Position numbers and translations under genes: made by a program. From IMG/VR virus record IMGVR_UViG_3300031977_000093, positions 1-35,195 of that record: a stretch of 35,195 nt of DNA; one strand, given 5' to 3'. This stretch comes from a virus. Below the pieces are notes generated by a model. The model was not told where the DNA came from and searched no databases. It saw only the letters and a program-made list of their open reading frames with translations. Positions 3,212 through 18,504 of the stretch are shown here, one piece after another; within the stretch, counting starts at the first letter, position 1, and every line of letters begins with the position of its first letter.

Positions 3212-3215
3212 TAGA

Positions 3216-3235
3216 CTCCAAATAACTTTTTGGAG
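3216..3235 (+). promoter_or_regulatory. Hairpin sequestering the ribosome site of the next gene
   Basis: CTCCAAA (3216-3222) is perfectly complementary to TTTGGAG (3229-3235) with a 6-nt loop. The right arm contains GGAG, the only plausible Shine-Dalgarno for the ATG at 3245 (9 nt spacing). In the mRNA the site would be base-paired, so translation of the following gene may be repressed, temperature-sensitive or dependent on an upstream event. Confidence 0.6.
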
Positions 3236-3244
3236 ATTGTCCTG

Positions 3245-4090: not shown

Positions 4091-4133
4091 AAAAACCCCT
4101 TGAGCAGATTGTTTGATTTTTGATAGAAAGTGT

Positions 4134-4211
4134 TGAGGCGGCATACCATCGTTTTTGTTGGTTGGGTTAAGCTACCGAATGCGCTATTCTCACATTTTAA
4201 CCGCCGCCTCA
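4134..4211. repeat. Widely spaced inverted repeat between convergent genes
   Basis: TGAGGCGGC (4134-4142) is the exact reverse complement of GCCGCCTCA (4203-4211), 60 nt apart, in the gap where the plus-strand operon (ends 4090) meets the minus-strand operon (ends 4215). It could pair in either transcript and act as a loose bidirectional terminator, but no T tract follows. A GTTTTTTAAAAAAAC palindrome at 4082-4096 overlaps the upstream stop codon. The rest of the gap shows nothing. Confidence 0.4.
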
Positions 4212-4214
4212 CGA

Positions 4215-4571: not shown

Positions 4572-4716
4572 GTTCCCTCTCCATCATTTTTATAAGGTGT
4601 TCAAGTTCTTCGACTTGTTGCTTTAGTGTAAAACGACGACGCGCCGTTGCTTCGTCTTTCATGGACTGCAATCGGCGCGTCAATAGTATTTTAATCTGCG
4701 TGTACTGCTCGGTCAT
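4501..4716 (-). CDS. Small coiled-coil protein
   Basis: 71 residues with an almost continuous charged helix (LLTRRLQSMKDEATARRRF then KQQVEELEHLIKMMEREL) that has coiled-coil spacing, and a polar S/N/Q-rich tail. The ATG is 3 nt after the upstream stop, with a weak TTAGG ribosome site. Its last 71 nt are shared with the next gene in a different frame. The tail could be read-through of a gene that really ends functionally earlier. Function unknown. Confidence 0.5.
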   Translation of the reverse strand: MTEQYTQIKILLTRRLQSMKDEATARRRFTLKQQVEELEHLIKMMERELGIEERINTNANSESSSQNGASV

Positions 4717-4719
4717 TGC

Positions 4720-4947
4720 CTAATCCCATCTAGCGTTTCCTTTTAAAACGATAGCAGGGCCAACAATGCCTGTCCCGCAGATTTTAGTAGCTTCTTCGTT
4801 AAATGGCAAACCGTCTAGCAACCCTTCTTCGTTTACTAGAATTTGCCAGTCTTGATGCGTAGGTGATCGAACCATTTCAACCAAGCCTCCGACCAATCCT
4901 TGAGCCTCTTCGAGACTCGGCCTTCGATCTTCAAATACATGAATCAT
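4720..4947 (-). CDS. DUF3846-like phage protein
   Basis: 75 residues that match the pattern of the DUF3846 family: a GGLVE block (about 20-24, 'LQ.LVGG.IE'), then WQILVNEEGLLDGLPFN (about 34-50, 'vNEeG...LP.N') and a closing GTGIVGPAIVL strand (about 58-68, 'IvG.a.vl'). Members occur in phages and plasmids and have no established biochemical role. The start has an excellent ribosome site (AAGGAGAAGTAA-ATG) and a plausible promoter 28 nt upstream, so this gene may begin a short three-gene transcript at the end of the replication operon. Confidence 0.7.
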   Translation of the reverse strand: MIHVFEDRRPSLEEAQGLVGGLVEMVRSPTHQDWQILVNEEGLLDGLPFNEEATKICGTGIVGPAIVLKGNARWD

Positions 4948-4974
4948 TTACTTCTCCTTCTTTGTAGATTGGGA

Positions 4975-5003
4975 TTTATACCAAGTATTCCCATAGTATG
5001 CAA
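4975..5003 (-). promoter_or_regulatory. Putative sigma70-type promoter for the DUF3846-like gene
   Basis: On the minus strand, TTGCAT (+ coordinates 4998-5003) and TATAAA (4975-4980) are separated by exactly 17 nt, and the start codon at 4947 lies about 28 nt past the -10. The -10 is 5/6, the -35 only 3/6. It sits directly after the hairpin terminator of the preceding gene, which supports a new transcription start. Confidence 0.5.
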
Positions 5004-5005
5004 GT

Positions 5006-5029
5006 AAAAAGTTAACCGGGAGCGCCCGG
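5006..5029 (-). terminator. Intrinsic terminator after the replicative helicase gene
   Basis: Read on the minus strand, CCGGG-CGCT-CCCGG forms a 5-bp GC stem with a 4-nt loop (arms at 5025-5029 and 5016-5020), followed by TTAACTTTTT (T run at 5006-5010). Flanking GTTAAC copies on both sides can extend the pairing imperfectly. It lies 35 nt beyond the stop at 5064. Confidence 0.7.
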
Positions 5030-5063
5030 CAGTTAACCAAAATAACCCGAACAATTTATCGTG

Positions 5064-7292
5064 TTAGATGTTATCGCGCCCGGTTTGGCGTTCGTATTCG
5101 CCGCGAGCCAGAGGTCCGTCCATAGTTCCGAGCCACTTCTCTTCGCCGCTTGTCGTTAGTGCGTACTTACGGATCATGCCTTGCTCCATGGCTTTGGTCA
5201 CCAGTTCTTTAACTGTGGTGCGCTTGCCTGCATTTTTGAGAGCAATGATGCATGGTTCTGTAGGCTCTGATTCCTGCACGACATTGTAAACGCCATCGTT
5301 CTTACCATCGTGGGTAAGCGCACGACCATCGTTTTCACGCATACGGACTAGATCGACAAGATGGGCGAGTCGATCACGCTGCGTCTGTGATAGGATGAGC
5401 GATGCGATGTCCACGCTGCGATCTTCAAGCAACCCTGTGTCTGGATTACGGATGAAGTGTCGGATGTCACGATTAGCAGGACCGTTGGATTTAACGACTG
5501 CGCCATCGAACACGGCGTTGCGTGTATAGGCGATTTGCAGATCACGGCAGCGTTGCTTGGCTGTGCCTTCGTCAACTTGCCAGACAGCGAATGCCGAGCG
5601 AACGCCATCAACGATAGCTGATGTACCGCGAATAAGATTCCGCGCTTGCTCTGGTGTTGTGACTGGATCACTGTCTCTGATCTTCGCCATGTGGTGGTTA
5701 ACGATCACAGTTGCCGCTGTTTCTGTTGCCATCTGCGCAAGAAGACCCATGAATGCAGCACCCGCTGCGGGGTCAGCGTTCACATCTGCGTGAACAAATG
5801 ACGCGAGAGGGTCAATGATAATCAGCTTGAGGTTTTCAAGTTCGAGCATTTGATCGTAGATGCGAGAGAACTCTTCGCCCATAAGGTAGGTATTGTCAAA
5901 CTTATGCATGATTGGAAACACGCCGCCCAAGTTGGGTAGCGGTAGAACACGCAGATTGTGATCATAGTGTTCGCGGTATCCCATGGGATCAAGCCGAGCA
6001 ATTCTGCGGTGCATCTCGTCTTTGTCGTCTTCTGCTGTGATGAGGATAACATCACCATGCTCTGCGACCAGACCACCGAATGCGTTTTGCATGGATGCGC
6101 CCGAGGCGACCTTCATGGCTAAGTCGAGCGTCATCATGCCTTTACCCGAGTCACCCGCTGCTGCGAATACCACTGGCACCCCGAGCGGAATTGTATCGCT
6201 GATCAGAAACTTTTGCTGTGGCGCAGACCCGACGAAATACTTGTTTATAAGCAGGCTTTCGTCCAAAAGCGAGATTGGCTTTTTTACTTTACTTTCATGG
6301 GTTTGCAAAAACTTGTTGATGTCAAATTCTTCTTCGATAGCATCCGCTGCGTCCCACTTTTCTGGCTTTGTCGATGGGATGTGCAGCGTCACTGTGGACT
6401 TTGCGCCTGCGGCTTTTGCTTGCGCTTCGACAATGCGAGCGAGCTTTTTGCCTGCCTCGTCATTGTCAGGCCAAAGGATTACTTCTTTGTTTCTGAAGGG
6501 AGAGAAGTCAAATTTTGAGGCCGTGTTTTCGGACAGCATACCTGCACCACCGATAGTGCATGTGGCAGCGTATCCGAGTTCCGTGAGTGCATCGGCACAC
6601 TTCTCTCCCTCAACCCAAATCACCTTGTCCGCTGCAAGAACATCGGGTATGTTATACAGGGGTCTGGGTTCGGGTAAACCTTGGCGTCCATTCATAAACT
6701 GGCGGAATTGTTTCTTAGGCTTCCCAGCACTATCTCGAACAATTTCGCCAGTCTCATCTCTATCAAAGTATTTGCGCACCGTTACGATCACTTCGCCGTG
6801 TTCGTCTGTGTAGGTGTATTCGTCTTCGAATGGTGTCTGCGGCCCGATCTGCATTTTGACAGGCTTGGCCTCTGGCGGTTTAAAACCGTTCGTTGTTGTG
6901 GTGTTGGTTACCTGAAAGTTACTAGAGTTGTTCGGCTTAACGATGTTCTCAGGCACAGGTGCGAATGCTGTGGGCAGGTAGTCAGAGAAGTATTCTGCTG
7001 TCTCTGCAATGGACCATCCCTTGCCTTCTTTTAGAATTTTGCAAATGCCACCAACGCCATCACCAGATTCAAAATCTTTGCCATTTAAGAACCATGGACT
7101 ATTGATGTCGATGTTAATTCTAAGCGATTGCCCACGTTCACCACTAAGAGAACCGAGCATAAAATCGTTGCCGCGACGAATCCCTTCAGGGAAAGTATCG
7201 AACAGCATTTGCAACTGAACTGTACGAGGAACTTCCCGAGAAATACGTTCAGCCACTTCTTTCGATGTCTTGCCAAACTGTAAAATATTCAT
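5064..7292 (-). CDS. TOPRIM primase-helicase fusion (replicative RecA/RepA-type helicase)
   Basis: 742 residues. The N-terminal ~110 residues contain a primase-like segment. A TOPRIM domain follows at about 222-310: VIWVEGEKCADAL (conserved Glu at 228) and LWPDNDEAGKKLA (the DxD at 276-278). A RecA-fold ATPase occupies about 365-610: Walker A AAGDSGKGMMT (378-388), Walker B LIIIDPLASF (490-499) and the NHH sensor segment (532-534). The C-terminus looks like a small winged-helix. This is the RepA/AAA_25 helicase architecture of phages and plasmids, fused to a primase: it should unwind and prime the phage replication fork. No DNA polymerase was found in the window, so host polymerase or a gene beyond the edge must elongate. 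ATG 7292 has only a weak GGAAAC ribosome site. A terminator follows the gene. Confidence 0.88.
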   Translation of the reverse strand: MNILQFGKTSKEVAERISREVPRTVQLQMLFDTFPEGIRRGNDFMLGSLSGERGQSLRINIDINSPWFLNGKDFESGDGVGGICKILKEGKGWSIAETAEYFSDYLPTAFAPVPENIVKPNNSSNFQVTNTTTTNGFKPPEAKPVKMQIGPQTPFEDEYTYTDEHGEVIVTVRKYFDRDETGEIVRDSAGKPKKQFRQFMNGRQGLPEPRPLYNIPDVLAADKVIWVEGEKCADALTELGYAATCTIGGAGMLSENTASKFDFSPFRNKEVILWPDNDEAGKKLARIVEAQAKAAGAKSTVTLHIPSTKPEKWDAADAIEEEFDINKFLQTHESKVKKPISLLDESLLINKYFVGSAPQQKFLISDTIPLGVPVVFAAAGDSGKGMMTLDLAMKVASGASMQNAFGGLVAEHGDVILITAEDDKDEMHRRIARLDPMGYREHYDHNLRVLPLPNLGGVFPIMHKFDNTYLMGEEFSRIYDQMLELENLKLIIIDPLASFVHADVNADPAAGAAFMGLLAQMATETAATVIVNHHMAKIRDSDPVTTPEQARNLIRGTSAIVDGVRSAFAVWQVDEGTAKQRCRDLQIAYTRNAVFDGAVVKSNGPANRDIRHFIRNPDTGLLEDRSVDIASLILSQTQRDRLAHLVDLVRMRENDGRALTHDGKNDGVYNVVQESEPTEPCIIALKNAGKRTTVKELVTKAMEQGMIRKYALTTSGEEKWLGTMDGPLARGEYERQTGRDNI

Positions 7293-7326
7293 TATCTTGT
7301 TTCCATACCCAAACAGACCACTACAT

Positions 7327-7360
7327 ATGGGGTTGCGTTAGTAGCGCACCCCATTTTTTT
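7327..7360 (+). terminator. Plus-strand (antisense) intrinsic terminator inside the minus-strand operon
   Basis: ATGGGGT (7327-7333) pairs with ACCCCAT (7348-7354); one bulged T then lets GCG (7335-7337) pair with CGC (7345-7347). A run of T (7354-7360) follows on the plus strand, giving a textbook intrinsic terminator oriented against the flanking genes. Read on the minus strand the hairpin is not followed by T, so it would not stop the operon. It overlaps the stop codon of the nuclease gene. Confidence 0.7.
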
Positions 7361-8142
7361 TATTCATTCCAACAAGTCTCACGAAACTCGCAGAATTTGC
7401 ACAGGAAAAAATCTTTACTTTGCGCTATGCGGGGTAGAATGTCACCCGCTTTCGCACTCGTCAAGATATTCACTGCGCGATCACTCGCTTCTTGCGCCAG
7501 AACAGGATTGTACGGCACTAGCTCGTAATAGATTTCAGACGTATTTTTATTGACCACTGTGAAGAGCGCAGGGTTTTCCGTTAGCTCCATATACGTCTGG
7601 TATAAAGCAATCTGCGTTGCATACACTGGGTTGGCTTTTGCAACACCATGGCGCATGAATGCTTTGAACTTTGAATCGTTTGCTGACTTATTTTCCCACA
7701 AACATGGATAGCCCATGGCGACAGGACCATCACAGACTACGCCGTCTATGTGGCCTCTGATCTGATCATCAGCGATTGAGAACCCAAATTGTTCGCCTTG
7801 TGAGTCTTCTGTCCGCAGATCAAACCCTGCATCCTTGATCCACTTAGCTGCGTAATCTTCGATCTCGTGACCGAACTGAAAGATGCGCAGCGTTTGTGCG
7901 CTGAACTCTTTGTCTGGGTCCACAGGATAGTTGAGGTAGCGATACTGTATCTTGCGCTGACATTCGTCACCGATACTAGATGCGCCAATGTACTTGCGGC
8001 GTTCGCGTTTCTTTTCGCCTGCGACAATGGCATTGTCTACCGCTGCTTTGATGTGCTCAACAATTGGGTCATCCTTAGAAGGGGATTGATGTAGAAGGCC
8101 AAGTGCCTGTTGACTTAAAGTAGGTTTCTTCGAGCTTTCCAA
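7360..8142 (-). CDS. Cas4/RecB-type PD-(D/E)XK nuclease with probable Fe-S cluster
   Basis: 260 residues. RecB-nuclease motifs appear in order: FGHEIED (90-96, metal/DNA-binding His), GHIDGVV (130-136, catalytic Asp133), WENKS (149-153, Glu150 and Lys152) and YATQIALYQTYM (174-185, Gln motif). Four cysteines, C61 in GDECQRK and C248, C251 and C257 in CKFCEFRETC (C-x2-C-x5-C), match the 4Fe-4S ligand pattern of Cas4 and AddB. It should resect or trim DNA ends during phage recombination, beside a Sak4-like ATPase. There is no CRISPR array or Cas1/Cas2 nearby, so a stand-alone phage exonuclease is the better reading. The start is TTG 8142 with CGGAG 7 nt upstream; no ATG exists until deep inside. 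It overlaps the next upstream gene by 68 nt. Confidence 0.85.
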   Translation of the reverse strand: MESSKKPTLSQQALGLLHQSPSKDDPIVEHIKAAVDNAIVAGEKKRERRKYIGASSIGDECQRKIQYRYLNYPVDPDKEFSAQTLRIFQFGHEIEDYAAKWIKDAGFDLRTEDSQGEQFGFSIADDQIRGHIDGVVCDGPVAMGYPCLWENKSANDSKFKAFMRHGVAKANPVYATQIALYQTYMELTENPALFTVVNKNTSEIYYELVPYNPVLAQEASDRAVNILTSAKAGDILPRIAQSKDFFLCKFCEFRETCWNE

Positions 8143-8299
8143 TGTTGATCTCCGCTGCTAGACGTTCTGCTTCCTGTAATCCAAAGATTAGTGTGTGGAC
8201 CTGCTCTTCTGTTAAGTCAGAGAACCGTGTGTCCCACCCAAACTTTCCTAGTATATGCGCCAATTCTTCGATTGGCTTTGGTGCTGATGGCACTGTCAA
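8075..8299 (-). CDS. Small helical protein of unknown function
   Basis: 74 residues with a TTG start at 8299 (GGAG 8 nt upstream), overlapping the previous gene's stop as TTGA. The core FSDLTEEQVHTLIFGLQEAERLAAE (about 26-50) reads as two amphipathic helices. The C-terminal ~22 residues overlap the nuclease start in another frame and are unremarkable. Position between two replication genes and its own ribosome site support expression; no family recognised. Confidence 0.55.
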   Translation of the reverse strand: MTVPSAPKPIEELAHILGKFGWDTRFSDLTEEQVHTLIFGLQEAERLAAEINIGKLEETYFKSTGTWPSTSIPF

Positions 8300-8601
8300 T
8301 GTACTGTCTCCTCTCGTGACCCGAACAATTCTATGACTTCATCTACTTCTTCCGGGTCTGCATCTTTGTTTCTGAAGCCGATGTTTAATACTTCTGAACC
8401 TTTGATGATGACTGTGGCTGTGCCGAACAGAACTGTGTGCTCTGCGTCATAGATATGCTCTTCGATAACTTCGTTCGCTATCTCTTGGACTTCGCCTAAA
8501 TCTTCTGGATCATTGACCCAACACACCATCTCAATTTCAGATGTTTCGATATTCTCCTCACTCTTTTCTGCAATCATGAGGTACATTTCAAATCTCGGCA
8601 T
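8296..8601 (-). CDS. Acidic phage protein of unknown function
   Basis: 101 residues from ATG 8601 (GGAG about 7 nt upstream); a TTG 15 nt earlier is a weaker option. Strongly acidic (many D/E in EKSEENIETSEIEM, NDPEDLGEVQEIANEVIEEH and DADPEEVDEVIELF) with alternating strands and helices, a ferredoxin-like layout. Acidic small phage proteins sometimes mimic DNA or inhibit host nucleic-acid enzymes, but there is no specific evidence here. Overlaps the upstream gene by 14 nt and couples to the next by a TTGA overlap. Confidence 0.6.
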   Translation of the reverse strand: MPRFEMYLMIAEKSEENIETSEIEMVCWVNDPEDLGEVQEIANEVIEEHIYDAEHTVLFGTATVIIKGSEVLNIGFRNKDADPEEVDEVIELFGSREETVH

Positions 8602-8752
8602 TCGGTTTCTCCACAATGCGTTTGGCTAAATCAGAGATTAGATTAGCCGTGGCTCTTGTGGTTAACTCTACATGACCGACCTCTTTGCCGTCTACCCACA
8701 TGTAAACGACTGGTCCAGTCTCGCCATCTCGTACCGTAATTAGCTTTATCAT
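8588..8752 (-). CDS. Small beta-rich phage protein
   Basis: 54 residues (MIKLITVRDGETGPVVYMW...) starting at ATG 8752, which overlaps the helicase stop as ATGA; a longer frame to 8941 would run inside the helicase gene and has no ribosome site. The first half is a beta hairpin (VVYMWVDGKEVGHVEL), the second a helix (TTRATANLISDLAKRIVE). Function unknown; translation is coupled to the helicase. Confidence 0.6.
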   Translation of the reverse strand: MIKLITVRDGETGPVVYMWVDGKEVGHVELTTRATANLISDLAKRIVEKPNAEI

Positions 8753-10443
8753 TCTGCCGCCTGTTGCATGATTTTTTGTTGTGCTTGATTGTAGTGCGCC
8801 TTGTAACGATGCTCGGTCCATAGGAAGCCAAGAGCGCAGCTTGCGCGGTACTTGGTCCATGAAAAGTCCATGACGTTTACTTCGACGCCTGCATCTCTTA
8901 GCAATTGGATTTGCTTTGCCGATGCTTTTTGGTTGAGCCAACGCTTGGTTTTGTTTGCTGCGCTGTCATCTTCGATCTCACGCAGGAAGTCATCTGCTGC
9001 TCGCATTGCGTTGATCTTATCGCCAATGGCTACTGTGCGCACTGGCATGGACTGTGGCTTGACCATAGCAACCCAAAAGTCATTGACGTATAGCGGAGCG
9101 ATACAGACAACACCTTTGAATCCCAAAGCCATCATAATGTCGCTTTCTGGGAACGGTTCGATCCACAGGAATGGTGACATCTTCATTAGATCGTACTCGG
9201 TCATTACAAAGTTTTCGAGTACATCCTTTTCGGCTTTCTGGAAGATGTGACCGCAGAATGGGCATTCGCGTGTGGTTGGTGCAACCTCAGCTTCACACTC
9301 TGGGCATACCTTAACTGGGGCTTCACCACCCTCTCGCTTGACCGCGCCATCTAGGTTGGCTGTGTCATCAAGAGAACCGTGCGTAATAACGGACGTTCCA
9401 AAGTCCATGACGATGCAGTCTGTCTTGACTGTGTTCGGATATAGCTCTGGATCAACGATGCGCAGCCCACGACCAATCATCTGCACCATAGTGCCCTTCT
9501 GGGAGCAGGGACGCGTCAGGACAACACAAGAGACTGGTGGGGCGTCAAACCCTTCTGTAAGCACCGCTACGTTCACAATCACCTGTGTGTCGCCATGCTC
9601 TAGGTCATGCAGCATTTGCTCACGCTCGGCTTTGTCTGTCTCTCCTGTGACGTAATCAGCTTTAACGCCTGCGAGCAAGAACGCTTCGCAAAGATGTTCG
9701 GCATGTTTGACTGTCGAGCAGAAGACAACGGTCTTGCGATCACCTGCCTTCGCCTGCCATTCCCGAACAATTCTATCGTTAATGACTTGGCGGTCCATGA
9801 TCGCGGCGACCTCTTCCATGTCATACTCTTTGCCGCGCTTCGTGACTTTGTTCAGGTCATCGTTTACGCCAAGGTCAACGACAAACGTCTTGGGGCGCAC
9901 GAGGTAACCTTCGTGAATAAGTGTTGCCAGTTCGATCTGGTGTGCGCAGTTATTGAATACTGAGCGTAAGCCTTTGCCATCGCCACGGTTGGGCGTAGCT
10001 GTGAAGCCCACGATCTCTGCGCTGTCATTGTCTTCAAGGATCGCGTCAATCACACGACGATACGTGGGAGCCGCTGCATGGTGACCTTCGTCAATGACGA
10101 CCATATCGAACTTGGGACGCTGTGCGAGATTGCGTTCACGCGAAATGGTCTGAACCATTGAGAACACTGCATCTCCTTCCCAATGCTTAACCGTACCGTT
10201 GACGATACTGGTGGTCATCAGGGGGTTTACCTTTTTGAACTTGGATTGGTTTTGCTCAACAAGTTCGTCGCGGTGTTGGACGACAAGAATCTTTTTGCCC
10301 TTCTTATGACGCTTGCCTACGAGCGCAGAGAGCATGATGGTTTTGCCTGCACCTGTTGGTGCGACAACTAGGGTATTGCCGTGCTTGTCGAGGGCACTGA
10401 GTGCGTCGTTGACGGCTACCTCTTGGTAGGGACGTAATAACAT
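8749..10443 (-). CDS. SF2 DEAD/DEAH-box helicase with C-terminal zinc ribbon
   Basis: 564 residues. Superfamily 2 motifs in order: Q-motif-like RPYQ (4-7), Walker A APTGAGKT (28-35), motif II DEGHH (118-122), motif III TATP (148-151) and motif VI QMIGRGLR (321-328), followed by a CPEC...CPFC zinc ribbon (C380, C383, C394, C397) and a ~165-residue C-terminal region of unknown role. This is the phage UvsW/RecG/SSL2-like helicase type that remodels branched DNA or assists replication and recombination. The next genes upstream are the DUF669-like and Sak4-like genes, so a role in the recombination pathway is likely. ATG 10443 lacks a strong ribosome site. Confidence 0.88.
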   Translation of the reverse strand: MLLRPYQEVAVNDALSALDKHGNTLVVAPTGAGKTIMLSALVGKRHKKGKKILVVQHRDELVEQNQSKFKKVNPLMTTSIVNGTVKHWEGDAVFSMVQTISRERNLAQRPKFDMVVIDEGHHAAAPTYRRVIDAILEDNDSAEIVGFTATPNRGDGKGLRSVFNNCAHQIELATLIHEGYLVRPKTFVVDLGVNDDLNKVTKRGKEYDMEEVAAIMDRQVINDRIVREWQAKAGDRKTVVFCSTVKHAEHLCEAFLLAGVKADYVTGETDKAEREQMLHDLEHGDTQVIVNVAVLTEGFDAPPVSCVVLTRPCSQKGTMVQMIGRGLRIVDPELYPNTVKTDCIVMDFGTSVITHGSLDDTANLDGAVKREGGEAPVKVCPECEAEVAPTTRECPFCGHIFQKAEKDVLENFVMTEYDLMKMSPFLWIEPFPESDIMMALGFKGVVCIAPLYVNDFWVAMVKPQSMPVRTVAIGDKINAMRAADDFLREIEDDSAANKTKRWLNQKASAKQIQLLRDAGVEVNVMDFSWTKYRASCALGFLWTEHRYKAHYNQAQQKIMQQAAE

Positions 10444-10469
10444 TGGAACACCTATTCGCTAGAAAAGTG

Positions 10470-10536
10470 AGGGGGGATTGCGGCCCACGGCCCCCCTGTC
10501 CGTGGTCTAGCAGGCGCGGATTGGCCTTGCCGCTAG
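10470..10536 (-). other. Two stem-loops between the DUF669-like and helicase genes
   Basis: AGGGGGG (10470-10476) pairs with CCCCCCT (10491-10497) around a 14-nt GC-rich loop, followed on the minus strand by TCACTTTTC. A second, CTAGC-A-GGC/GCCGCTAG (10507-10536, one bulge), begins right after the stop at 10538. Together they may form an attenuator or RNA-stability element that lowers helicase expression; a proper T tract is missing. Confidence 0.45.
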
Positions 10537-10537
10537 A

Positions 10538-11158
10538 TTAGCGTTGCGCCCATGACGGAACAGCACCAGACGCTTGAGGCTGCGCGGGGGCAGCTTGCAT
10601 TGTCTGTGCAGCCGCAGGGGTCTGCATTACTGGAGCTTGTCCACTTGGAACGAACTCCCGCGAATTAGGTGTCAGGGCAGCGATCAGACGATTGCTATCA
10701 GAGTAACCGTTTGTGCCCTTCTTGATTCCGACCTTAGCACAGATTTCTAGTGCGTTTAAGTCAAAAACGCCAGAAATATTACGAGCTTGCTGTGCTTCTG
10801 GTGACATATCCGCAGGATCAATGTTACGCGCACTTTCGATCAAAGACTTCAGTGTACGCAAACCAATCTCTTTGGCTTGTGGAATGCCGCTCTGACCCAT
10901 CTTGTCGCCATCGACAAACACACGGTCCCAGAACTTGCGACGATCATACTCACCGCCCACAATTGTGAACTCCAGTTCCATCCACTTCGCCGCTGTGGAC
11001 ATGGACTTCTTGAACCATGCGCCTTGACCGAACTCAGGGATTTCCATGTCGCCTTGCTTGACGACCATGACTGCGCGGCACACTGTGCCGTTAGGGATTA
11101 GCGAGAACTCACGCTCTTGTGGGTTATCGTCTGCGGGTACATTGTTTAGATTAAGCAT
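10538..11158 (-). CDS. DUF669-like putative ssDNA-binding protein
   Basis: 206 residues. About residues 60-80 contain KWMELEFTIVGGEYDRRKFWDRV, the 'L.L.F.I..GeY..R..WDR' core of DUF669-type phage proteins, then a helical part and a C-terminal P/A/Q/M-rich low-complexity tail (about 170-206) ending VPSWAQR. DUF669 members sit next to Sak4-type ATPases and are thought to be OB-fold ssDNA-binding proteins; the tail here is not acidic as in SSB, which is unusual. It overlaps the Sak4-like gene by 8 nt, so the two are probably made as partners. Assignment by pattern, not by search. Confidence 0.7.
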   Translation of the reverse strand: MLNLNNVPADDNPQEREFSLIPNGTVCRAVMVVKQGDMEIPEFGQGAWFKKSMSTAAKWMELEFTIVGGEYDRRKFWDRVFVDGDKMGQSGIPQAKEIGLRTLKSLIESARNIDPADMSPEAQQARNISGVFDLNALEICAKVGIKKGTNGYSDSNRLIAALTPNSREFVPSGQAPVMQTPAAAQTMQAAPAQPQASGAVPSWAQR

Positions 11159-12023
11159 TTACTTGCTCCTCTTCGCTAGAGTTTTGAGTTGCAGGATCAA
11201 CGAATGTCAAATCCTTTGGTTGGTCTGGAGAGCCACTGGACATTTTGTCCATCAGTTTACCCAGATGTGGCTCTTCCAATACGTCGAGGCGACCTGAGCG
11301 ATCTTTCGCAGGGTAACCCCATTCGTTCAGAGGCTGACAGACGAACGCACGATACTGACCGTGGTCACCTGAAAGAACAGCCATTGTGATCATTTCGTCA
11401 ACAATCCCGGGCAATTCACGCCCTGTCTTGCTGCCTTCGATCTGTAGAGCGTATTGCTTACGCCCGTAATCATCTGTGATTTCGTCAAGAATGCCAACGA
11501 AAACCACATTCTTTTCGCGGATGTGCTGCAAGTGAGTTAGCCAAGACATCATCTCACGACCATGCATGCCATAGGCTGCACGGGTGTCTAGCTTGCCAGA
11601 CCGCTCTGAGCGTGAGTCTGGTTGCTGTAAGCACCACTGAAAGCATAAACGCCCTGCAACTGTGATAGAGTCTACAAAGAGCGTATCATACTTCTGCATG
11701 ATCTCCACGCTGTCGCCAAACATCGACACGACGTAATCGTAGTGCGCTTGACTGTATGGTTGATCTTCGCTCAACGCGGGATTTGGACCCCCAATGAAAC
11801 ATGCGAGGTCACGACACTCTTGCCATGTTCGTGGACGCAATACGTCAACAGGGAATCCTTCGATAGCGGCATCGCCTGCTTCCAAGTCCAAGAACAGAGT
11901 GGTGCTAGGGTTTAGGGTACGAGCCAGTGTGGTTTTACCCACACCGCTTGCACCGCATACTACGATCTTGTGGCCTTTCTTTTCAGCTAGGCGTTGATCG
12001 GCTGTGATAATTTGTAGGGCCAT
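11151..12023 (-). CDS. RecA-fold ATPase, Sak4/AAA_24 type single-strand annealing factor
   Basis: 290 residues. Walker A is GASGVGKTT (24-32) and a Walker B-like hydrophobic strand YDTLFVDS (112-119) follows; a further strand, NVVFVGILDE, leads into a basic segment. This matches the short RecA-like Sak4/AAA_24 phage proteins that promote annealing and strand exchange with an SSB partner. Here that partner would be the overlapping DUF669-like protein, and the Cas4-type nuclease would supply 3' single strands. The C-terminus (from about 255) is polar and unstructured. ATG 12023 overlaps the upstream stop by 1 nt. Confidence 0.8.
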   Translation of the reverse strand: MALQIITADQRLAEKKGHKIVVCGASGVGKTTLARTLNPSTTLFLDLEAGDAAIEGFPVDVLRPRTWQECRDLACFIGGPNPALSEDQPYSQAHYDYVVSMFGDSVEIMQKYDTLFVDSITVAGRLCFQWCLQQPDSRSERSGKLDTRAAYGMHGREMMSWLTHLQHIREKNVVFVGILDEITDDYGRKQYALQIEGSKTGRELPGIVDEMITMAVLSGDHGQYRAFVCQPLNEWGYPAKDRSGRLDVLEEPHLGKLMDKMSSGSPDQPKDLTFVDPATQNSSEEEQVNA

Positions 12024-12421
12024 TAGTCTACCTCTTCGATTAAGAAACCACCAACTTCCACGCTACGGCATGGTTCAAGCATTTCTTGAATAGCAGGTGG
12101 TGCGGCTGTGTATTTACGCTCGTCTACTGCAAGCGTAAGTTTTCCATAGTGACGTGCGTCCTGCTCTGGCATGGACTGCAACACGTTACCAAGCTCGTCT
12201 TGGTCCCACACAACTTTCTTGCGTACCGTAGCTTTGAGCTTACGATTACCCGCAACAATATATGTGGTGCCAAAGTCTTTACCGTCTGCGCGTAATGCGT
12301 CACGGGCTTGGTCCAAGAACATATCTGAGATTTGTTGTTCGACATCTTTGAGTTCGACCTTCAAGTCCGCGATCACGTACTTGAGTTCTTCTCGACGTTC
12401 GAACAGTTCACGACTATTCAT
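12023..12421 (-). CDS. Conserved phage protein, first gene of the replication operon
   Basis: 132 residues. An N-terminal coiled coil (LFERREELKYVIADLKVELKDVEQQISDM, about 6-34) leads into a beta-rich part with KDFGTTYIV, KKVVWDQDELGNVL and FLIEEVD at the C-terminus. I recognise the 'GKDFGT...KKVeWDQ..L...' layout from proteins encoded beside Sak4-type ATPases in many phages, but no role is established that I can name. ATG 12421 has AAGGA about 7 nt upstream and a leader of roughly 30 nt from the divergent promoter. Confidence 0.7.
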   Translation of the reverse strand: MNSRELFERREELKYVIADLKVELKDVEQQISDMFLDQARDALRADGKDFGTTYIVAGNRKLKATVRKKVVWDQDELGNVLQSMPEQDARHYGKLTLAVDERKYTAAPPAIQEMLEPCRSVEVGGFLIEEVD

Positions 12422-12457
12422 GTCGATTCCTTTCCGCTTTAAATTACTAGAAACCCA

Positions 12458-12486
12458 TCTATCCCATATAGCTTGGGATATGTCAA
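12458..12486 (-). promoter_or_regulatory. Minus-strand promoter of the replication operon
   Basis: On the minus strand a perfect TTGACA -35 (+12481-12486) is followed after 17 nt by GATAGA (+12458-12463) with an upstream TGG, an extended -10 (TGnGATAGA). The start codon at 12421 is ~37 nt beyond. The -10 is only 3/6, which is compatible with regulated transcription. Confidence 0.65.
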
Positions 12487-12533
12487 CAACTTTTTTACAT
12501 AAATTTTTTTATTGACATCCCATTTGATATGGG
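12460..12533. promoter_or_regulatory. Paired operators overlapping the divergent promoters
   Basis: TATCCCA-N7-TGGGATA (12460-12480) is a perfect palindrome lying between the -10 and -35 of the minus promoter. CCCAT-N5-ATGGG (12519-12533) is a palindrome with the same CCCA half-site in the spacer of the plus promoter. A protein dimer contacting both would control both directions, in the manner of a phage switch. Which protein does so is not shown: the RHH protein at 13365, the Fis-type and the HTH gene are candidates. Confidence 0.7.
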
Positions 12534-12540
12534 TTATAGT
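12512..12540 (+). promoter_or_regulatory. Strong plus-strand sigma70 promoter
   Basis: TTGACA (12512-12517), 17-nt spacer, TATAGT (12535-12540): a perfect -35 and a 5/6 -10. It drives the gene at 12623 through an ~80-nt leader. The AT-rich region upstream (12487-12511, with T runs) would act as an UP-like element. Confidence 0.8.
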
Positions 12541-12555
12541 GGGATTATAGAGGAT

Positions 12556-12619
12556 GAGAGTTCTAGCTCTCTTATTTTCAACCGAGGCGAAAGCCTCCCC
12601 TATACTCTGAAAGGAGTAT
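12556..12619 (+). promoter_or_regulatory. Structured 5' leader with ribosome-site hairpin
   Basis: Three consecutive hairpins: GAGAG-N6-CTCTC (12556-12571), then GAGGC-GAAA-GCCTC (12584-12597, a stable GNRA tetraloop), then ATACTC-TGAAAG-GAGTAT (12602-12619). The last one contains the Shine-Dalgarno GGAG of the gene at 12623 in its right arm. The layout suggests translational control (repressor protein, thermometer or riboswitch-like) rather than a passive leader. No known riboswitch aptamer is recognised. Confidence 0.65.
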
Positions 12620-12622
12620 GCC

Positions 12623-12970
12623 ATGTCTAACACTATCCCCTTCGGCCTGACCTTCCGTGGTCAGAAATCCTACACTCAATCTGAAGTCTCGCACTTCATT
12701 GAAATCGCTGACTCTGTTGGCGACGACGAGTTGCGCATCAAATATGTTGCGTTCCTTGAAGCCTTCCTTGACGGGAAGATCAAGCCATCAACGCAAGTTG
12801 ATATTGATGTCATGCTTTGCTTTCAGGGCGATTTAGATAATCGCGCTGACATCGACTACCGCGAGGGCCACTGGGATGATGAACCCCAGATTCTCGCGGG
12901 TGGCAAATACTTTGCCAAGCAAGCCAAAAAGCTGATGGACCACATCAGCAAAAATGTGCGGATCGGCTGA
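12623..12970 (+). CDS. Unknown protein under the divergent switch promoter
   Basis: 115 residues (MSNTIPFGLTFRGQKSYTQ...). Mostly helical with a moderately acidic composition; no helix-turn-helix, zinc-binding or catalytic motif seen. It is one of only two plus-strand genes in the middle of the window. It has its own strong promoter, operator and structured leader, and an intrinsic terminator just after its stop, making it a single, tightly regulated transcription unit. That setting is typical of an early phage regulator, repressor or host-takeover protein; which one cannot be told from sequence. ATG 12623 has AAAGGAG upstream. Confidence 0.65.
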   Translation: MSNTIPFGLTFRGQKSYTQSEVSHFIEIADSVGDDELRIKYVAFLEAFLDGKIKPSTQVDIDVMLCFQGDLDNRADIDYREGHWDDEPQILAGGKYFAKQAKKLMDHISKNVRIG

Positions 12971-12979
12971 TCGCACTGT

Positions 12980-13003
12980 GGGGGCTAACGCCCCCCTTTT
13001 TTT
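12980..13003 (+). terminator. Intrinsic terminator overlapping the convergent nuclease stop codon
   Basis: GGGGGC (12980-12985), loop TAAC, GCCCCC (12990-12995), then a C and seven T: a strong plus-strand terminator for the gene at 12623. The minus-strand DUF1064 gene ends at 12985, so its last three codons and stop are inside the hairpin. Confidence 0.85.
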
Positions 13004-13362
13004 GACAAGAATATCTCAATGCCATGGACAGCTTTCATCAGCTTCTTCTTTAATTTGAACTCAGGAGTTTCGACGCCCTTGGCATCTTCGACAACTTCGT
13101 ACCAGTCACCGTTCTTGTCCTGCTTTTGATAGCGGAAGTCTGCAATGTAGGCGCAAATCTTTTCACCGTTGATCGCTATGTTGTATCGCACCTGTAGCTC
13201 AAGGTCTTTGACCCGCTCTGCGCGTTCGAGCGATTTGAGATACAGGTAACGCTCTGACTCCCACTTGGAATCAAACTTGATACCATCCACAGTTACTTTC
13301 TTGTTGCCGTACTTGGGTCTTGACCCACGCCGCTTGGGATTATATACAGTAGGAAACGTCAT
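12985..13362 (-). CDS. DUF1064 (PD-(D/E)XK-like) phage endonuclease
   Basis: 125 residues. It has the DUF1064 layout: basic N-terminus RPKYGNKKVTVDGIKFDS (about 15-32), then SKWESERYLYLK (32-43, 'FdSk.Ea.ry..L'), then a core with CAYIADFRYQ (70-79) and YEVVEDAKGVETPEFKLK (about 87-104, the D/E-x-K pair EDAK). DUF1064 proteins are small phage nucleases of PD-(D/E)XK type proposed to resolve or cleave branched DNA; the exact substrate is not proven. ATG 13362 has GGAGGA about 11 nt upstream, lying inside the divergent gene. The C-terminus ends in KKGGR where the terminator sits. Confidence 0.8.
   Translation of the reverse strand: MTFPTVYNPKRRGSRPKYGNKKVTVDGIKFDSKWESERYLYLKSLERAERVKDLELQVRYNIAINGEKICAYIADFRYQKQDKNGDWYEVVEDAKGVETPEFKLKKKLMKAVHGIEIFLSKKGGR
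13320..13348 (+). promoter_or_regulatory. Plus-strand promoter inside the DUF1064 gene start
   Basis: TTGACC (13320-13325) and TATACA (13343-13348) are 17 nt apart; both match four or more consensus bases. The predicted RNA start is near 13355, giving a very short leader (about 10 nt) to ATG 13365, or 25 nt to ATG 13380. Confidence 0.55.
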
Positions 13363-13364
13363 TT

Positions 13365-13598
13365 ATGGGAAAGTCCTCCATGCCAAATCCAGTAAAATAC
13401 AAATCAGTCGGTGTTTCAATAGAGGCTTACGACAAATTAGTTTACATCGCAGAAAAAGAAGATCGTGCTATCGGGCGACAGCTATCGCGTATGATTGACG
13501 AAGCATACGATGAAATTCAAGCGCGTGTAAATGCACGGCAGTCATACCGCCCTGCCGCAGTTGGCATTGGCGGTATCGCATCAGTTATCGAAGACTAG
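13365..13598 (+). CDS. Ribbon-helix-helix (Arc/CopG-like) DNA-binding protein
   Basis: 77 residues. YKSVGVSIEAYDKLVYIAEKEDRAIGRQLSRMIDEAY (about 12-48) fits the RHH fold: a beta strand (KSVGVSI) followed by two helices with the typical turn, a small dimeric DNA-binding regulator found in toxin-antitoxin systems, plasmids and phages. The remaining 25 residues are polar. It could bind the operators at 12460-12533. Either ATG 13365 or ATG 13380 may be the start; the latter has GGGAAAG nearby. It is divergent from the DUF1064 gene, with 2 nt between the two start codons, and overlaps the end of the convergent late operon by 4 nt. Confidence 0.75.
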   Translation: MGKSSMPNPVKYKSVGVSIEAYDKLVYIAEKEDRAIGRQLSRMIDEAYDEIQARVNARQSYRPAAVGIGGIASVIED

Positions 13599-16500
13599 AG
13601 TAGTCCCGCACTTCCCAGACCACCGAGCAATGTAGACGCAATGTATGGATTGCGCTTTGCTCTCTCACGCAAGTTAGCCTGCTGTAACGCTCTCGCCTGT
13701 AACGCTTCTGGATCAGGAGAGTATGAGATCGAAGGCATGGCAACTTCTGGAACACTTGTTCGGCTTGGAGTCGGCGCTGTGGGTTGTGTTGGCTCCGTGC
13801 CACGAATCTGCTGTGGGCTTGTAAGAAGCTGACCAGTAGCTTGACGAGTACCAACCTGACCACGATTGATTGCACCAAGTGTAGCACCTACACCACGGCC
13901 CAAGCCTGCTGCTCTCTCCGTTAGAGATGCACCTTCACCCGCAACTTGTGCTGCTGATGAGTTAAGAGCCTGAGACAAGCTCTGTGCCGCTGCCTGTGGG
14001 CTTGTGCGCCCTGCTTTGACCTCTAATGCGCTGCGCATAACAGTTGGGTTATTCAGCATGTAATTAAGAACGCGGAATCGACCTGCCTTTGGCAAGTTCT
14101 TCATTGGGTTCGTAAACTGACCAGTGCGGATCGCATCAGCCGCAAGTGATCCTGCGCCTCGTGCCCCAGTGTCACGCAAGAAGACGAGATCATCAGACAA
14201 TTCTTTAATGTCTTTTACTGTCTGCTCGCCTAATACCTTGTTGAGCATTTCAGGCTTATAAGACTCTAGCGCGTTACGAAGAGAGTAAGCTGCTTTCTCG
14301 TTAATGAAGATGTCTTCGTCTACAGACCCAAGAATATCATTAACAATTGTTCGTCTTATTGTCTCTTTTGCTTCCGGGCTATCATCAAAGAACTTGAGAA
14401 TCCGGTTGATTTGAGCACGGGTCATGTTGCGGTTGACGATGGCTGCTGCCGCTTCTTCTGGATCAAGAGCACCTGCATTCAGTCTTTTAAGAATGCTAGA
14501 AGATGCCGCTTCTTCCAGCCCGACCTGCGCATCACGAACGCTACGAAGAGTTTGAACAATGCTCGCATCAGGGTTTTGAGATACAATGCGTTGCAGTGTA
14601 TCGTCATCAATCTTCTTGATGCCCCCATATGCAAGAGATTTTGCTAGGTTCTGCACTTCAGGCCATTGCTCACCAAACAACAGCTTGCCAGTCTTGTCCT
14701 TGTTCATACGCTTGATTTTGCCGTAGAACTGGACGCCGTTGAACTTTGTTGGATCAGCAAAGTCTTTGTTAGAATCAAGCAATGCTTCATCAAGATAGCG
14801 TTTAGCCAAGTCTTGCCGAACAACTTCCTTTTGACCTTTTGCTGCCTCTAATGCAGCTTCGATACGTGCAGGAGTTTGAATGATCTTGTCGTAGTTTCTA
14901 CCGACTTCTAGCTTAACATTGACGCCCGGCTCACCAAGATTCCGAACAATTCCTAGATTCTCAAGGCGGTTAAACATACGCATTTCAGCACGATACGCTT
15001 GGTTCGCTGTTTTCAGCAAGTCCATGGCATCACGCATCTTGCGAGCATTCCCCGCACCGCCAACGCCTGTCAACTTAACATTGCCGCTTAACATGTTATC
15101 AACTGTGTTGCGCATATCGACCAACAAGCGACGAGGCGTTGTGTCTGAGATACTTAGACGAGGGTCCATCAATGTGTCTTGGATATTCTTGCGCAATCCA
15201 CGTAGACCGTTGAACGTTGTATAACCTTCTTTTGTTCCACGCGTTACAAGGTCATTGATCTGGCGACCAATCTCTGTGAACTCTTGTGGTGCAACAGATG
15301 CCGCGCCACCATACTTGCTGTCGATAACATCATCGAAGCGTGTCTTCAGTGCGCTGACATCAAAGACAGGTAGCTCACCACCTTCAGCCTGAACAGTTCT
15401 GCCATTTAGATTGATTGGCCCTGAAATCTCTGCGAGCTTATCATCAACAGCTTTGTAGTTGGTGTTGGCACCTTTGGCGAACTCATCATAGTTATACATC
15501 AACACGTCAAGAACGGCATCATCAATCTCTGTGCCCTCTTTTGTGGACTTAGTAAGAACAGAGATTGTGTCGTCAATCGCAGACATATGCGCTTTTTGCG
15601 CATCTTCTAAAGCTGTCTTTAACTGGGCTGCTTTCGCAGGTGCAGCATCGGCAATAACCTTTGCAAGATCATCGGTTGTGGCACCTGCAATCATCTTACC
15701 AGTCTTATCCATGATGCCTGCGTCTTGCAGTAGTTTTTCTTTTTTGTTCAATGCAAAGACAACGTTTTGAACAGCACGTTTTTCTTTGCCTGAAATGGCT
15801 TCAGCAATCTGAGATGCACGAGATACAGCCGCAGGCATACCCGCTGCTTCATAGCTCGGCATACCACCTTCATCCATAATTCTAAGAGCTTGCTCGGCTT
15901 GTCCCTGACCTAGCTGACGCTCACCTTGGCCCATAGCACGAGCGGCTGCGCTTGCGCCTTTGCCTGCACCCTGAATGAGCGCACGACCTGCTTTGAACGT
16001 ACCCATAGTCGCAAGGTCAATTGTCCCTGCCAACGCACCTTCTAAGGCTGCTTGTTTGGCGACTTCAGCACCACTTTGCTTCTGCAATCCAAGCAGGCTC
16101 TCAATGCCTTCTTCAAGAAGCTGACCACCCGCTGCACCTGCACCTGCACCCACAGCACCACCGATTAGCGTCGGGGCACCGATGATACCACCGATAACAG
16201 AACCGATAGTCTCTGGTGCTAATCCTGCTACATCTGCAACGTCACGAAGACTAAAGCCCTCTTCTTCAATTACAAGATTTGTATCTGTAGGATCATAGCC
16301 TAGCTTTGCTTGCCCTTCAGGTGTTAGAGCAAGGCGACCTTTTCTGTCCTTGGTGAATCCAGTTTCACCTACTTGCTGCATTAAGAAGTTTTCTTTTTCT
16401 TCTGGCGTTTCCATGAAGGATAGCTTTGCGCGTAGTCCACCACCTGCACCTGTGGTGTAATCAAAGCCTTCGTCTTTGCCAGACACAGTTTTTTCTAACT

Positions 16501-16636
16501 CTGCAAAACTTTTTGGCTTACGCATACCAAGAGAACTACCAGACTGAGATGAGCGAAATTCCTGCAATAATTCTTGCGGTGACTTCTCTTTATTCTGGCT
16601 CTCTCTGAACTGACGGAGTTGCTCTTGAGGGGTCAT
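13595..16636 (-). CDS. Large internal virion (DNA-ejection-type) protein
   Basis: 1013 residues, last gene of the late operon. The N-terminus (about 1-60) is polar; a hydrophobic/glycine-rich segment follows at about 140-180 (ETIGSVIGGIIGAPTLIGGA then VGAGAGAAGG), typical of membrane-interacting ejection proteins. The remainder is long amphipathic helix with many A/E/K/L. Proteins of this size and layout form the inner core of short-tailed phages or are ejected into the periplasm. No lytic transglycosylase motif was found. Function by position and composition only. The start ATG 16636 has GGAG about 9 nt upstream. Confidence 0.65.
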   Translation of the reverse strand: MTPQEQLRQFRESQNKEKSPQELLQEFRSSQSGSSLGMRKPKSFAELEKTVSGKDEGFDYTTGAGGGLRAKLSFMETPEEKENFLMQQVGETGFTKDRKGRLALTPEGQAKLGYDPTDTNLVIEEEGFSLRDVADVAGLAPETIGSVIGGIIGAPTLIGGAVGAGAGAAGGQLLEEGIESLLGLQKQSGAEVAKQAALEGALAGTIDLATMGTFKAGRALIQGAGKGASAAARAMGQGERQLGQGQAEQALRIMDEGGMPSYEAAGMPAAVSRASQIAEAISGKEKRAVQNVVFALNKKEKLLQDAGIMDKTGKMIAGATTDDLAKVIADAAPAKAAQLKTALEDAQKAHMSAIDDTISVLTKSTKEGTEIDDAVLDVLMYNYDEFAKGANTNYKAVDDKLAEISGPINLNGRTVQAEGGELPVFDVSALKTRFDDVIDSKYGGAASVAPQEFTEIGRQINDLVTRGTKEGYTTFNGLRGLRKNIQDTLMDPRLSISDTTPRRLLVDMRNTVDNMLSGNVKLTGVGGAGNARKMRDAMDLLKTANQAYRAEMRMFNRLENLGIVRNLGEPGVNVKLEVGRNYDKIIQTPARIEAALEAAKGQKEVVRQDLAKRYLDEALLDSNKDFADPTKFNGVQFYGKIKRMNKDKTGKLLFGEQWPEVQNLAKSLAYGGIKKIDDDTLQRIVSQNPDASIVQTLRSVRDAQVGLEEAASSSILKRLNAGALDPEEAAAAIVNRNMTRAQINRILKFFDDSPEAKETIRRTIVNDILGSVDEDIFINEKAAYSLRNALESYKPEMLNKVLGEQTVKDIKELSDDLVFLRDTGARGAGSLAADAIRTGQFTNPMKNLPKAGRFRVLNYMLNNPTVMRSALEVKAGRTSPQAAAQSLSQALNSSAAQVAGEGASLTERAAGLGRGVGATLGAINRGQVGTRQATGQLLTSPQQIRGTEPTQPTAPTPSRTSVPEVAMPSISYSPDPEALQARALQQANLRERAKRNPYIASTLLGGLGSAGLL

Positions 16637-16650
16637 TCGTGTACTCCACG

Positions 16651-18504
16651 CTATTTTTTGAAGTCATCTAACGTTAAGTTAGTGCCATAAACCTTGTTCA
16701 TTGCATCAAGTTCTGCCTGAGTTGGCATGTCGGAAACGTTGCCGCCAAACCTGATACCTGCATTTTGCTCTAGCCATCCTACAGCACGATCAAGGTTTTG
16801 CTGAGGTTTAACGATGGTCAAGTCATAAATATCTTTAAGCTGACGCTTAATGAGTTCAACGTCACCGCTTGTCCAGCTAATTTCACCAATACGCTTTGCA
16901 ACCAACTTACGGTCATTGTCTGATAGCGTTTTGCCAGATTCTTTAAGAATGTTTGTTGCTTCGTCAATCGCAAGATTGTTAAGCATTTGCTTTGCCTGAG
17001 CAACTGAACTTGGCATATCACCCGCAGATACGCCAAAGTTTCTCAATGCCTGTTGCATTCCGCTGAGGATTTGCTTTGGAATTGATACACCTTCGTTCAA
17101 GTTTGCAAGCAAAGTTTCGAACTTCTCTGCGCCTGAGTTGATGCTTTCTTGATATTCCATGAAACGACGAGCGACTGTCTCAGGGTCTTCTGCTATCTTA
17201 AACGAAGTTGGCGTAATGCCTTTATAGTTTGCATCAGCAGGAGCCGCTAACACTTGTAGCTCAGGCGGCACATCGTCAGCTTTACCGCCGATCAGTGACA
17301 CACGCTCATACGATCCCCACTGATCGCCAAGATCAACGCCCTCTGCGCGTTTCTCCAGTATCGCAAGGCGATCAGACGCATCAATGAACTCATAGTTTTT
17401 ATCAAAGTCTGGGTTTTGAATAAGTTTATTAAGTTCAAACTTGTTCAAGTCAACAAACTGGCCTTCATCAAAAGCAGCAAACTCTTCACCTTTGCCACCC
17501 TTTTTATAGACCCAGTATTTGCCACGGTTCATCAGCTTCTCTTGGTTCGCAGCATCTGTAGCCCGATCAGTTGCTCGGGTTTGTAGCGCATACTTACCAG
17601 CAGCTAATGCCGCTGCTCGCGCATCTGCTTGAGCCTTCTCTAGCTTAGGCAATGCTGCTTCGCTCGCTTCGCCCAGCGCAGCCAGCGCACCTCGGAAACC
17701 TTTGCCACCAGCTTTGTTGTTCATGAGGACAGCACCAGCAGCCATCAAAGCAGCAGCTTTGTTCGGCTTACCGCTAATGTCTATGCCCGTCGCTTCTTGG
17801 AACTCTTTCTTGTAGTCGTCCAAAGTCATTTCTTTTTTCTTTGGACCTGCGCCACGACTGTCTCCGATCAAATCATCCATAGCAGCAATGAACATTTGTT
17901 CGGCTGCATTCTTAGAATCAGCGAGCGGCATAGACTTTAGACCACCCTGACCTTCTGCAATCTGGGCTTCTCTGGCTCTAAAGTCTTCTGCTCGTTGCGC
18001 GTCTTTTTTCTTTTGCGCTGCTACAGTATCAAACTGTGCATCCAGAGCGGCTTGAATTTGTGCGTCCAACTCTGCCTTTGCTTCGCGCCCTTGGCGTTCA
18101 GCGCGTGTTTCAGGCATTCCTTTTGTGAGACCCTCACCTGTTGGGTCATATTTAAAGATTTCACCCGGCATATAATCATCAGGCAAGAAGTCTGGTGCAC
18201 CAAGTGTTGGGTCTGTCTCACCAAAAATGTCTACAAGATCAGTGCCTAAAGGCAACTCAGACTCTGAAATTTTACCAGACTGAACATCCCGAACAAATTG
18301 TGACGGACCAGTTAGGTAGTCAAGCGTTGCTTCACCCATCTTCTGTGGTGCATCAATGAGATAATCAGCAATACCGCCCAATCCTTCCATAAGAGACAAG
18401 GGGACTTGCGCTGCTGCACCAATTCTAGTTTTAGCGGGTGATAATCCAAACGGTCCTGAACGGCGTTGAAGTTCTCTATTATACGCGTCTAATGGATCAG
18501 CCAT
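16651..18504 (-). CDS. Putative internal virion protein
   Basis: 617 residues, helical and alanine/lysine-rich, between two other large late proteins with 14- and 9-nt gaps. An acidic, proline-containing N-terminal part (about 60-130) leads into a charged coiled segment (AKAELDAQIQAALDAQFD), a glycine/alanine stretch near 260-285 (NKAAALMAAGAVLMNNKAGG) and a mixed C-terminus. No enzyme motif. Position and composition make it a probable core or ejection component acting with its neighbours during DNA delivery. The ribosome site is AAGAGG, 6 nt before ATG. Confidence 0.55.
   Translation of the reverse strand: MADPLDAYNRELQRRSGPFGLSPAKTRIGAAAQVPLSLMEGLGGIADYLIDAPQKMGEATLDYLTGPSQFVRDVQSGKISESELPLGTDLVDIFGETDPTLGAPDFLPDDYMPGEIFKYDPTGEGLTKGMPETRAERQGREAKAELDAQIQAALDAQFDTVAAQKKKDAQRAEDFRAREAQIAEGQGGLKSMPLADSKNAAEQMFIAAMDDLIGDSRGAGPKKKEMTLDDYKKEFQEATGIDISGKPNKAAALMAAGAVLMNNKAGGKGFRGALAALGEASEAALPKLEKAQADARAAALAAGKYALQTRATDRATDAANQEKLMNRGKYWVYKKGGKGEEFAAFDEGQFVDLNKFELNKLIQNPDFDKNYEFIDASDRLAILEKRAEGVDLGDQWGSYERVSLIGGKADDVPPELQVLAAPADANYKGITPTSFKIAEDPETVARRFMEYQESINSGAEKFETLLANLNEGVSIPKQILSGMQQALRNFGVSAGDMPSSVAQAKQMLNNLAIDEATNILKESGKTLSDNDRKLVAKRIGEISWTSGDVELIKRQLKDIYDLTIVKPQQNLDRAVGWLEQNAGIRFGGNVSDMPTQAELDAMNKVYGTNLTLDDFKK

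Follow-up and report, generated by a model that had tools for sequence, protein, structure and literature searches.

Palindromic sites common to early, cargo and regulator promoters in a family of bacterial viruses, and a putative phage autorepressor

A linear-classed virus record from IMG/VR, analysed over its whole length of 35,195 bp and referred to here as the window, carries the same type of palindromic site in three promoters, namely those of a leftward early operon, a rightward cargo gene and the gene for an RHH-like 72-aa protein. We propose, with a probability of about 0.7 and from sequence comparison, that an autorepressor encoded by the phage, most probably the RHH-like protein, uses these palindromes as its operators and would restrict early and cargo expression to a pulse. 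On entry, host RNA polymerase would fire the unrepressed early/replication, cargo and repressor promoters; the accumulating repressor would then bind TGGGAT-type half-sites over the -35/-10 spacer and shut the early and cargo promoters together with its own. Such a shut-off would make expression of early and cargo genes a pulse, and a cargo unit with its own operator, promoter and terminator would thereby join the early regulon.

Palindromic sites in three promoters of the window

An earlier note on this DNA had described two divergent promoters with perfect TTGACA boxes and matching palindromic operators. Both boxes and both palindromes lie where it had placed them (Table 1), and a third copy of their common pattern, CCCAN7TGGG, which it had missed, is found in the promoter of the RHH-like gene. 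The pattern occurs three times in the window versus 0.20 times expected, a number that none of 100 shuffles reached, and all three copies fall in promoter spacers within a span of at most 876 bp. Neither TTGACA nor TGGGATA is enriched by itself (19 versus 28.5 expected and four versus 2.5 expected, respectively), and what exceeds chance is the dyad and its promoter placement. The description of the operators as matching holds for the half-sites, which are the common part; the whole sites are not close copies, operators 1 and 2 being identical at 12 of 17 positions (11 of 17 on the opposite strand, shuffle p 0.07). An extra TGGGATT half-site begins at 12540, beside operator 2.

The cargo promoter is the sole TTGACA-N15..19-TATANT in the 35,195 bp (0.09 expected) and ranks first in a consensus promoter scan of positions 1-18000, in whose list the minus promoter is absent. 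The latter, which sits before the 132-aa gene, the Sak4-like ATPase and the replication genes, has a -10 box that matches the consensus at three of six positions when read by eye at N17. About 30 bp past the early -35 box, the motif TCTAG (window 12447-12450) is kept in both clades described below and in left-arm promoters, where it is perhaps a transcription start or an RNA element.

Table 1. Genes, promoters and putative regulatory sites around the divergent promoters of the window
Feature	Positions	Strand	Description
Sak4-like AAA ATPase	11151-12023	-	second in leftward early operon
132-aa core gene	12023-12421	-	first in leftward early operon
Leftward early promoter	12458-12486	-	TTGACA 12486-12481, 17-bp spacer, weak -10 GATAGA
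Operator 1 (putative)	12460-12480		TATCCCA-N7-TGGGATA, over spacer and -10 of early promoter
A+T-rich stretch	12487-12511		between both -35 boxes; possibly UP-element-like
Rightward cargo promoter	12512-12540	+	TTGACA-N17-TATAGT, -35 at 12512-12517
Operator 2 (putative)	12519-12533		CCCAT-N5-ATGGG, within cargo promoter spacer
Short hairpin	12556-12571	+	GAGAGTTCTAGCTCTC, in cargo leader
Cargo gene, 115 aa	12623-12970	+	alpha-helical model, no known family
Terminator-like hairpin	12980-12995	+	with T run, closes cargo unit; first in terminator list
DUF1064 / Holliday junction resolvase-like gene	12985-13362	-	
Promoter of RHH-like gene	13320-13348	+	TTGACC-N17-TATACA, inside opposite-strand DUF1064 gene; kept in relatives
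Operator 3 (putative)	13324-13338		CCCACGCCGCTTGGG, overlaps -35 and spacer of RHH-like promoter
RHH-like putative autorepressor, 72 aa	13380-13598	+	alternative ATG 13365

Conservation of the sites and co-variation with the RHH-like protein

Loci for comparison were drawn from three sets: the best 80 of 140 confirmed relatives of the 132-aa gene (viral contigs, one scan), 80 loci from an RHH-like alignment (268 confirmed) and 64 loci reached via far-clade members. By the identity of their RHH-like protein to that of the window, they were divided into a near clade (at least 60%) and a far clade (below 50%).

TTGAC stands upstream of the 132-aa gene in every distinct sequence except the truncated loci L045 and L075. 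The 36 distinct near-clade early promoters carry the site exactly (22), with one mismatch (nine), with two (four) or with four (one), while all 16 distinct far-clade early promoters differ from it by at least three mismatches. Sites within one mismatch are accordingly found in 31/36 near versus 0/16 far early promoters, and the site of the RHH-like promoter is exact in 34/34 near versus 0/17 far sequences (Fisher 2e-9 and 7e-14, respectively, values that overstate independence because the distinct sequences come from related phages); all 17 far-clade RHH-like promoters have two mismatches. The association of site and protein is mainly one clade split, and common descent therefore accounts for part of it. 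Among 16 distinct exact early sites, compared as 23-mers, the half-sites and the adjoining T and A are fixed and the centres vary. In locus L029, upstream of 6001, the early operator stands about 10 bp away from its usual place with respect to TTGAC; the half-sites are retained there, and the centre is inverted. The site at the RHH-like gene lies at -57 to -59 in all 56 further loci, which are those of the 80 in the second set that remain when 24 with contigs already in the first set are left out.

Whole records gave the same picture. All 19 near-clade records match, 17 at both the early and the RHH-like promoter and two at the RHH-like promoter only, with a total of 40 sites versus four for the reversed pattern. 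G005 and G018 have matches outside these promoters, identical in sequence but lying on opposite strands, and the additional match in G013 is a further early promoter. In 13 more records, 7/7 near-clade members match and 3/6 far-clade members have one stray match each. The element common to far-clade promoters is TTNGNAAAGTNTGGGAT, in a single orientation per promoter; a simple co-varying dyad for the far clade was dropped for this reason, and the TGGGAT half alone is common to both clades.

The RHH-like gene adjoins DUF1064 in nearly all loci that extend to it. Its product is the fastest-diverging neighbour, with 32-48% identity in the far clade versus 70-80% for the 132-aa protein; the N-terminal KYKS is invariant, and the residues after it differ between the clades. 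In both clades a variable linker is followed by a conserved acidic tail like GGIASVIED (window 13560-13598), possibly a partner-binding tail.

Lost synonymous variation inside DUF1064

The RHH-like promoter overlaps the DUF1064 coding sequence. Across 77 distinct DUF1064 genes of the near clade, the amino acid is conserved at 76 codons, nine of which are without synonymous variation; eight of the nine are codons 6-9, 12-14 and 16, that is, within codons 6-16 (hypergeometric 2e-8). These eight cover the -10 box, the half-sites with flanking ATT, the -35 box and, on the opposite strand, the codon that immediately precedes the -35. The centre codons 10 and 11 vary synonymously (fractions 0.25 and 0.20; the amino acid of codon 11 is 73% conserved, and this codon is hence outside the 76). 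The pattern is weaker in 41 far-clade genes, where codons 8, 13 and 14 show no synonymous variation and codon 9 a fraction of 0.05. Loss of synonymous variation over promoter and half-sites is direct evidence that the DNA, and not only the protein, is under selection. DUF1064 offers a clear case of a putative operator inside the coding sequence of another gene, seen as lost synonymous variation.

An exchangeable cargo slot under the local site type

The slot that separates DUF1064 from the 132-aa gene was compared in 97 distinct contexts, 67 of them empty (52-61 bp) and 30 with cargo. By blastp the cargo falls into eight unrelated families, the 115-aa family of the window in 16 contexts plus seven others. 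In the near clade, five of ten distinct promoters of the 115-aa family carry the CCCA-type site exactly and eight of ten within two mismatches; with all families pooled, 13 of the 15 distinct cargo promoters of the near clade are within two mismatches (four have two), and those of L098 and L117 are without an inverted dyad.

Members of the 115-aa family occur in the near and the far clade alike. In L083 and L069, two far-clade loci, the promoter of this cargo resembles the local early promoter (14/17 bases) and is not of the CCCA type; L069 stops within DUF1064, so that its RHH-like gene is not visible, and it was assigned to the far clade from its early promoter. Five far-clade loci have a cargo promoter that equals the early promoter of the same phage at 14-15 of 17 bases. 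In the separate mismatch comparison of promoters, one of five far-clade cargo rows (L082) is an early promoter picked by mistake. As the same cargo family bears the local site type in each clade, operator type goes with the phage more than with the cargo. In the window, the A+T-rich DNA that lies between the -35 boxes resembles the 3' end of DUF1064 found ahead of the early promoter where relatives have an empty slot, a likeness that suggests how cargo units got inserted. The early operon varies at a second place, the junction of the 132-aa gene and Sak4, where L014-L025 and similar loci have an extra 0.9 or 1.8 kb.

The structural model of the 115-aa cargo is good (pLDDT 85.5), and a Foldseek search with it gave no match at E 0.001 in PDB or BFVD. 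Searches for the family of the cargo, including Pfam, returned no match, and tblastn with the 115-aa protein had no match in 50,697 records. Two cargo families look papain-like by eye (GDC...H and CGP...H), with no match in Pfam. From position and variability, our guess is a counter-defence role for the cargo, which may benefit the phage.

Further promoters of the same type

The site served as bait in two scans, one of them with the pattern TTGACANCCCAN7TGGG, and 125 loci (L264-L388) drawn from both were compared with the family genes. Among the matches listed, most are unrelated contigs, presumably found by chance, and operator-bearing rightward promoters occur in L270, L288 (two), L308, L320 and L335, beside the Fis-type gene or at the matching position. 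Relatives of full length thus carry promoters of this kind on the rightward early operon. The record G003 (L011), 96-99% identical to the window in early proteins, has a similar promoter, TTGACATACCATATGACTTGGGATTATATGGG, with one mismatch about 345 bp beyond the left end of the window; still further out lies a second TTGACA promoter, which has CCCA half-sites. The window probably ends before such left-arm promoters. In several rightward early promoters, read by eye, half-sites of the TGGGAT type are spaced by about 10 bp over the -10 box, and TCTAG stands near the start. A non-coding stretch of about 400 bp in the left part of the window (774-1178), GGT/GGC-rich on the plus strand, is 93% identical to G003 along its entire 405 bp and unmatched in the stretch of G020 that was searched.

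Candidate binders and other readings of the sites

Three proteins had been named beforehand as candidate binders, the RHH-like, the Fis-type and the HTH protein. Of these, the RHH-like protein is the best fit, since the third site lies in its promoter and its divergence tracks the site, and it would on these grounds be the protein that binds and represses. Its assignment to the RHH proteins is weak and comes from a sequence pattern. RHH_7 was weakly matched in 6/35 members and RHH_5 in 2/35, none convincingly; PF01402 had no match in the window, the protein staying below the RHH family cut-off, and NCBIfam returned nothing coherent. A PDB search had its best RHH entry at E 0.38. Alignment by hhalign with 24 RHH_1 domains from the order of the metagenomic relative (a Rhodobacteraceae MAG, see below) reproduced the strand-helix-helix register with a probability of only 0.2, which is not significant, even though its sum of probabilities (16.4) stands above those of four other comparisons (0.8-7.3). 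AlphaFold models the monomer as a single helix (pLDDT 69) that lacks a two-helix break. Libraries, PDB and monomer model thus do not establish the protein as RHH. Used as a tblastn query, it had no match in 50,697 records.

Binding of the sites by the Fis-type protein (2073-2414), the HTH protein (4215-4571) or a host regulator appears unlikely. Both phage proteins have HTH-type matches, the Fis-type gene is present in 12/19 records, and an operator-bearing early promoter adjoins it in relatives. However, Fis-type identity ranges over 45-100% among near-clade members and is 56% between the clades and so does not track the operator type, as RHH-like identity does; the HTH protein was found in only 8/19 records and not in the operator-bearing 55.6-kb G026, an argument from absence that is weakened by the fragmentary state of the records; and the upstream regions of both genes are without a site in the window.

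It is somewhat less probable still that the shared letters reflect a duplicated early-promoter module, alike by descent and bound by RNA polymerase only, with no repressor. Cargo and left-arm promoters of both clades do have in common A+T-rich upstream DNA, TTGACA and a TGGGATA-TATGGG core. Yet the offset of the dyad from the -35 box differs among the three promoters of the window, and the halves are fixed where the centre varies, also in the RHH-like promoter, which is otherwise different and lies inside another gene. Regulation of an operator-like kind by a phage protein is well supported, and this part of the earlier claim stands.

The form of the region had further been likened to a phage genetic switch, but a lambda-like bistable choice between lysis and lysogeny by two divergent regulators is very improbable: divergent promoters with operators are present, whereas a tyrosine integrase (PF00589; serine integrases and partition genes lay outside this search) was found in 0/18 phage records of the family, the plus-side unit is dispensable, being absent from most contexts and replaced elsewhere by unrelated genes, neither divergent transcript encodes the putative regulator, and the lone match among bacterial genomes is a contig without an integrase match.

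Host and lifestyle

The window encodes replication genes (a Sak4-like ATPase, a helicase, a primase/helicase and the DUF1064 resolvase-like protein) as well as structural proteins and an endolysin. Its one relative among bacterial genomes is that contig, 24.6 kb of a Rhodobacteraceae MAG, which makes a Rhodobacteraceae host probable; the virus is bacterial and its host is probably a marine member of that family. A megablast search with window positions 1-25000 for the nearest phages and an Rfam search gave no match. The structural protein at 21887-24253 is about 36% identical to those of Roseobacter phages CRP-901/902 and of pelagiphages. Phages of the CRP-901/902 type are termed strictly lytic in the available part of their description, the text of which mentions neither a promoter nor a repressor (PMC10149686).

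A broader reading, less likely than not, is that a widespread family of probably virulent marine phages has an entry-pulse regulon, new and strongly diverged RHH-like repressors and a fixed slot that collects counter-defence genes adopting the local operator. If it is true, the operator could serve as bait for unknown counter-defence genes in uncultured Rhodobacteraceae phages. The proposed regulon supplies a rule of gene control that can be tested genome-wide in a large group of uncultured phages, for which one scan of viral contigs confirmed 140 relatives of the 132-aa gene, and yields a short list of cargo genes that have no known function and whose expression probably accompanies that of the replication genes. 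A literature search over titles and the starts of abstracts, with full text from open-licence PMC articles, found no report of this regulon.

Comparison with known systems

The Arc repressor of phage P22 has other operator letters and belongs to a temperate phage. To our knowledge, there is no exchangeable cargo slot under Arc. It does resemble the proposed repressor as a small RHH phage protein, described as binding a 21-bp operator in two adjacent major grooves, and the 21-bp span of operator 1 fits that length (PMC12645479). The archaeal virus RHH regulators SvtR and AvtR are reported to repress their own promoter and to bind other viral promoters, and are like the proposed repressor in autorepression and imperfect inverted repeats; they differ in having archaeal promoters and, for SvtR, a structural gene as the main known target (PMC5569661). 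For archaeal anti-defence genes, a conserved early regulatory sequence common to variable accessory genes and usable as bait has been described, but with TATA/BRE promoters and, in the sections of that report at hand, no single autorepressor with matched sites (PMC11065993).

Aca repressors of anti-CRISPR operons act at an inverted repeat in the core promoter and make expression self-limiting after entry, according to the part of the source available (PMC9410906). The inverted repeat in the core promoter is likewise found here, and self-limiting expression is what we propose. Unlike in Aca systems, the RHH-like gene is split from the cargo by the opposite-strand DUF1064, and the cargo is not a known anti-CRISPR and has no family match; the described Aca families are helix-turn-helix proteins in an acr operon, as phage repressors likewise are helix-turn-helix proteins in the available text of PMC8708921.

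Reg(p576) of the pLS20-family clade II plasmids is an RHH repressor acting on its own promoter and on those of variable establishment genes, with transient expression on entry and variable gene content as in the proposed phage regulon (available text of PMC8708921). In the phage, too, the gene for the putative regulator has a putative operator in its core promoter, and the same operator type recurs in promoters of variable accessory genes (13/15 near; eight families over both clades). Reg(p576) belongs to a conjugative Bacillus plasmid, whereas the carrier here is a phage without a detected integrase whose replication operon stands under the same operator type. While we do not claim membership in either group, the arrangement fits one that would work like those of the Reg(p576) plasmids and the Aca proteins.
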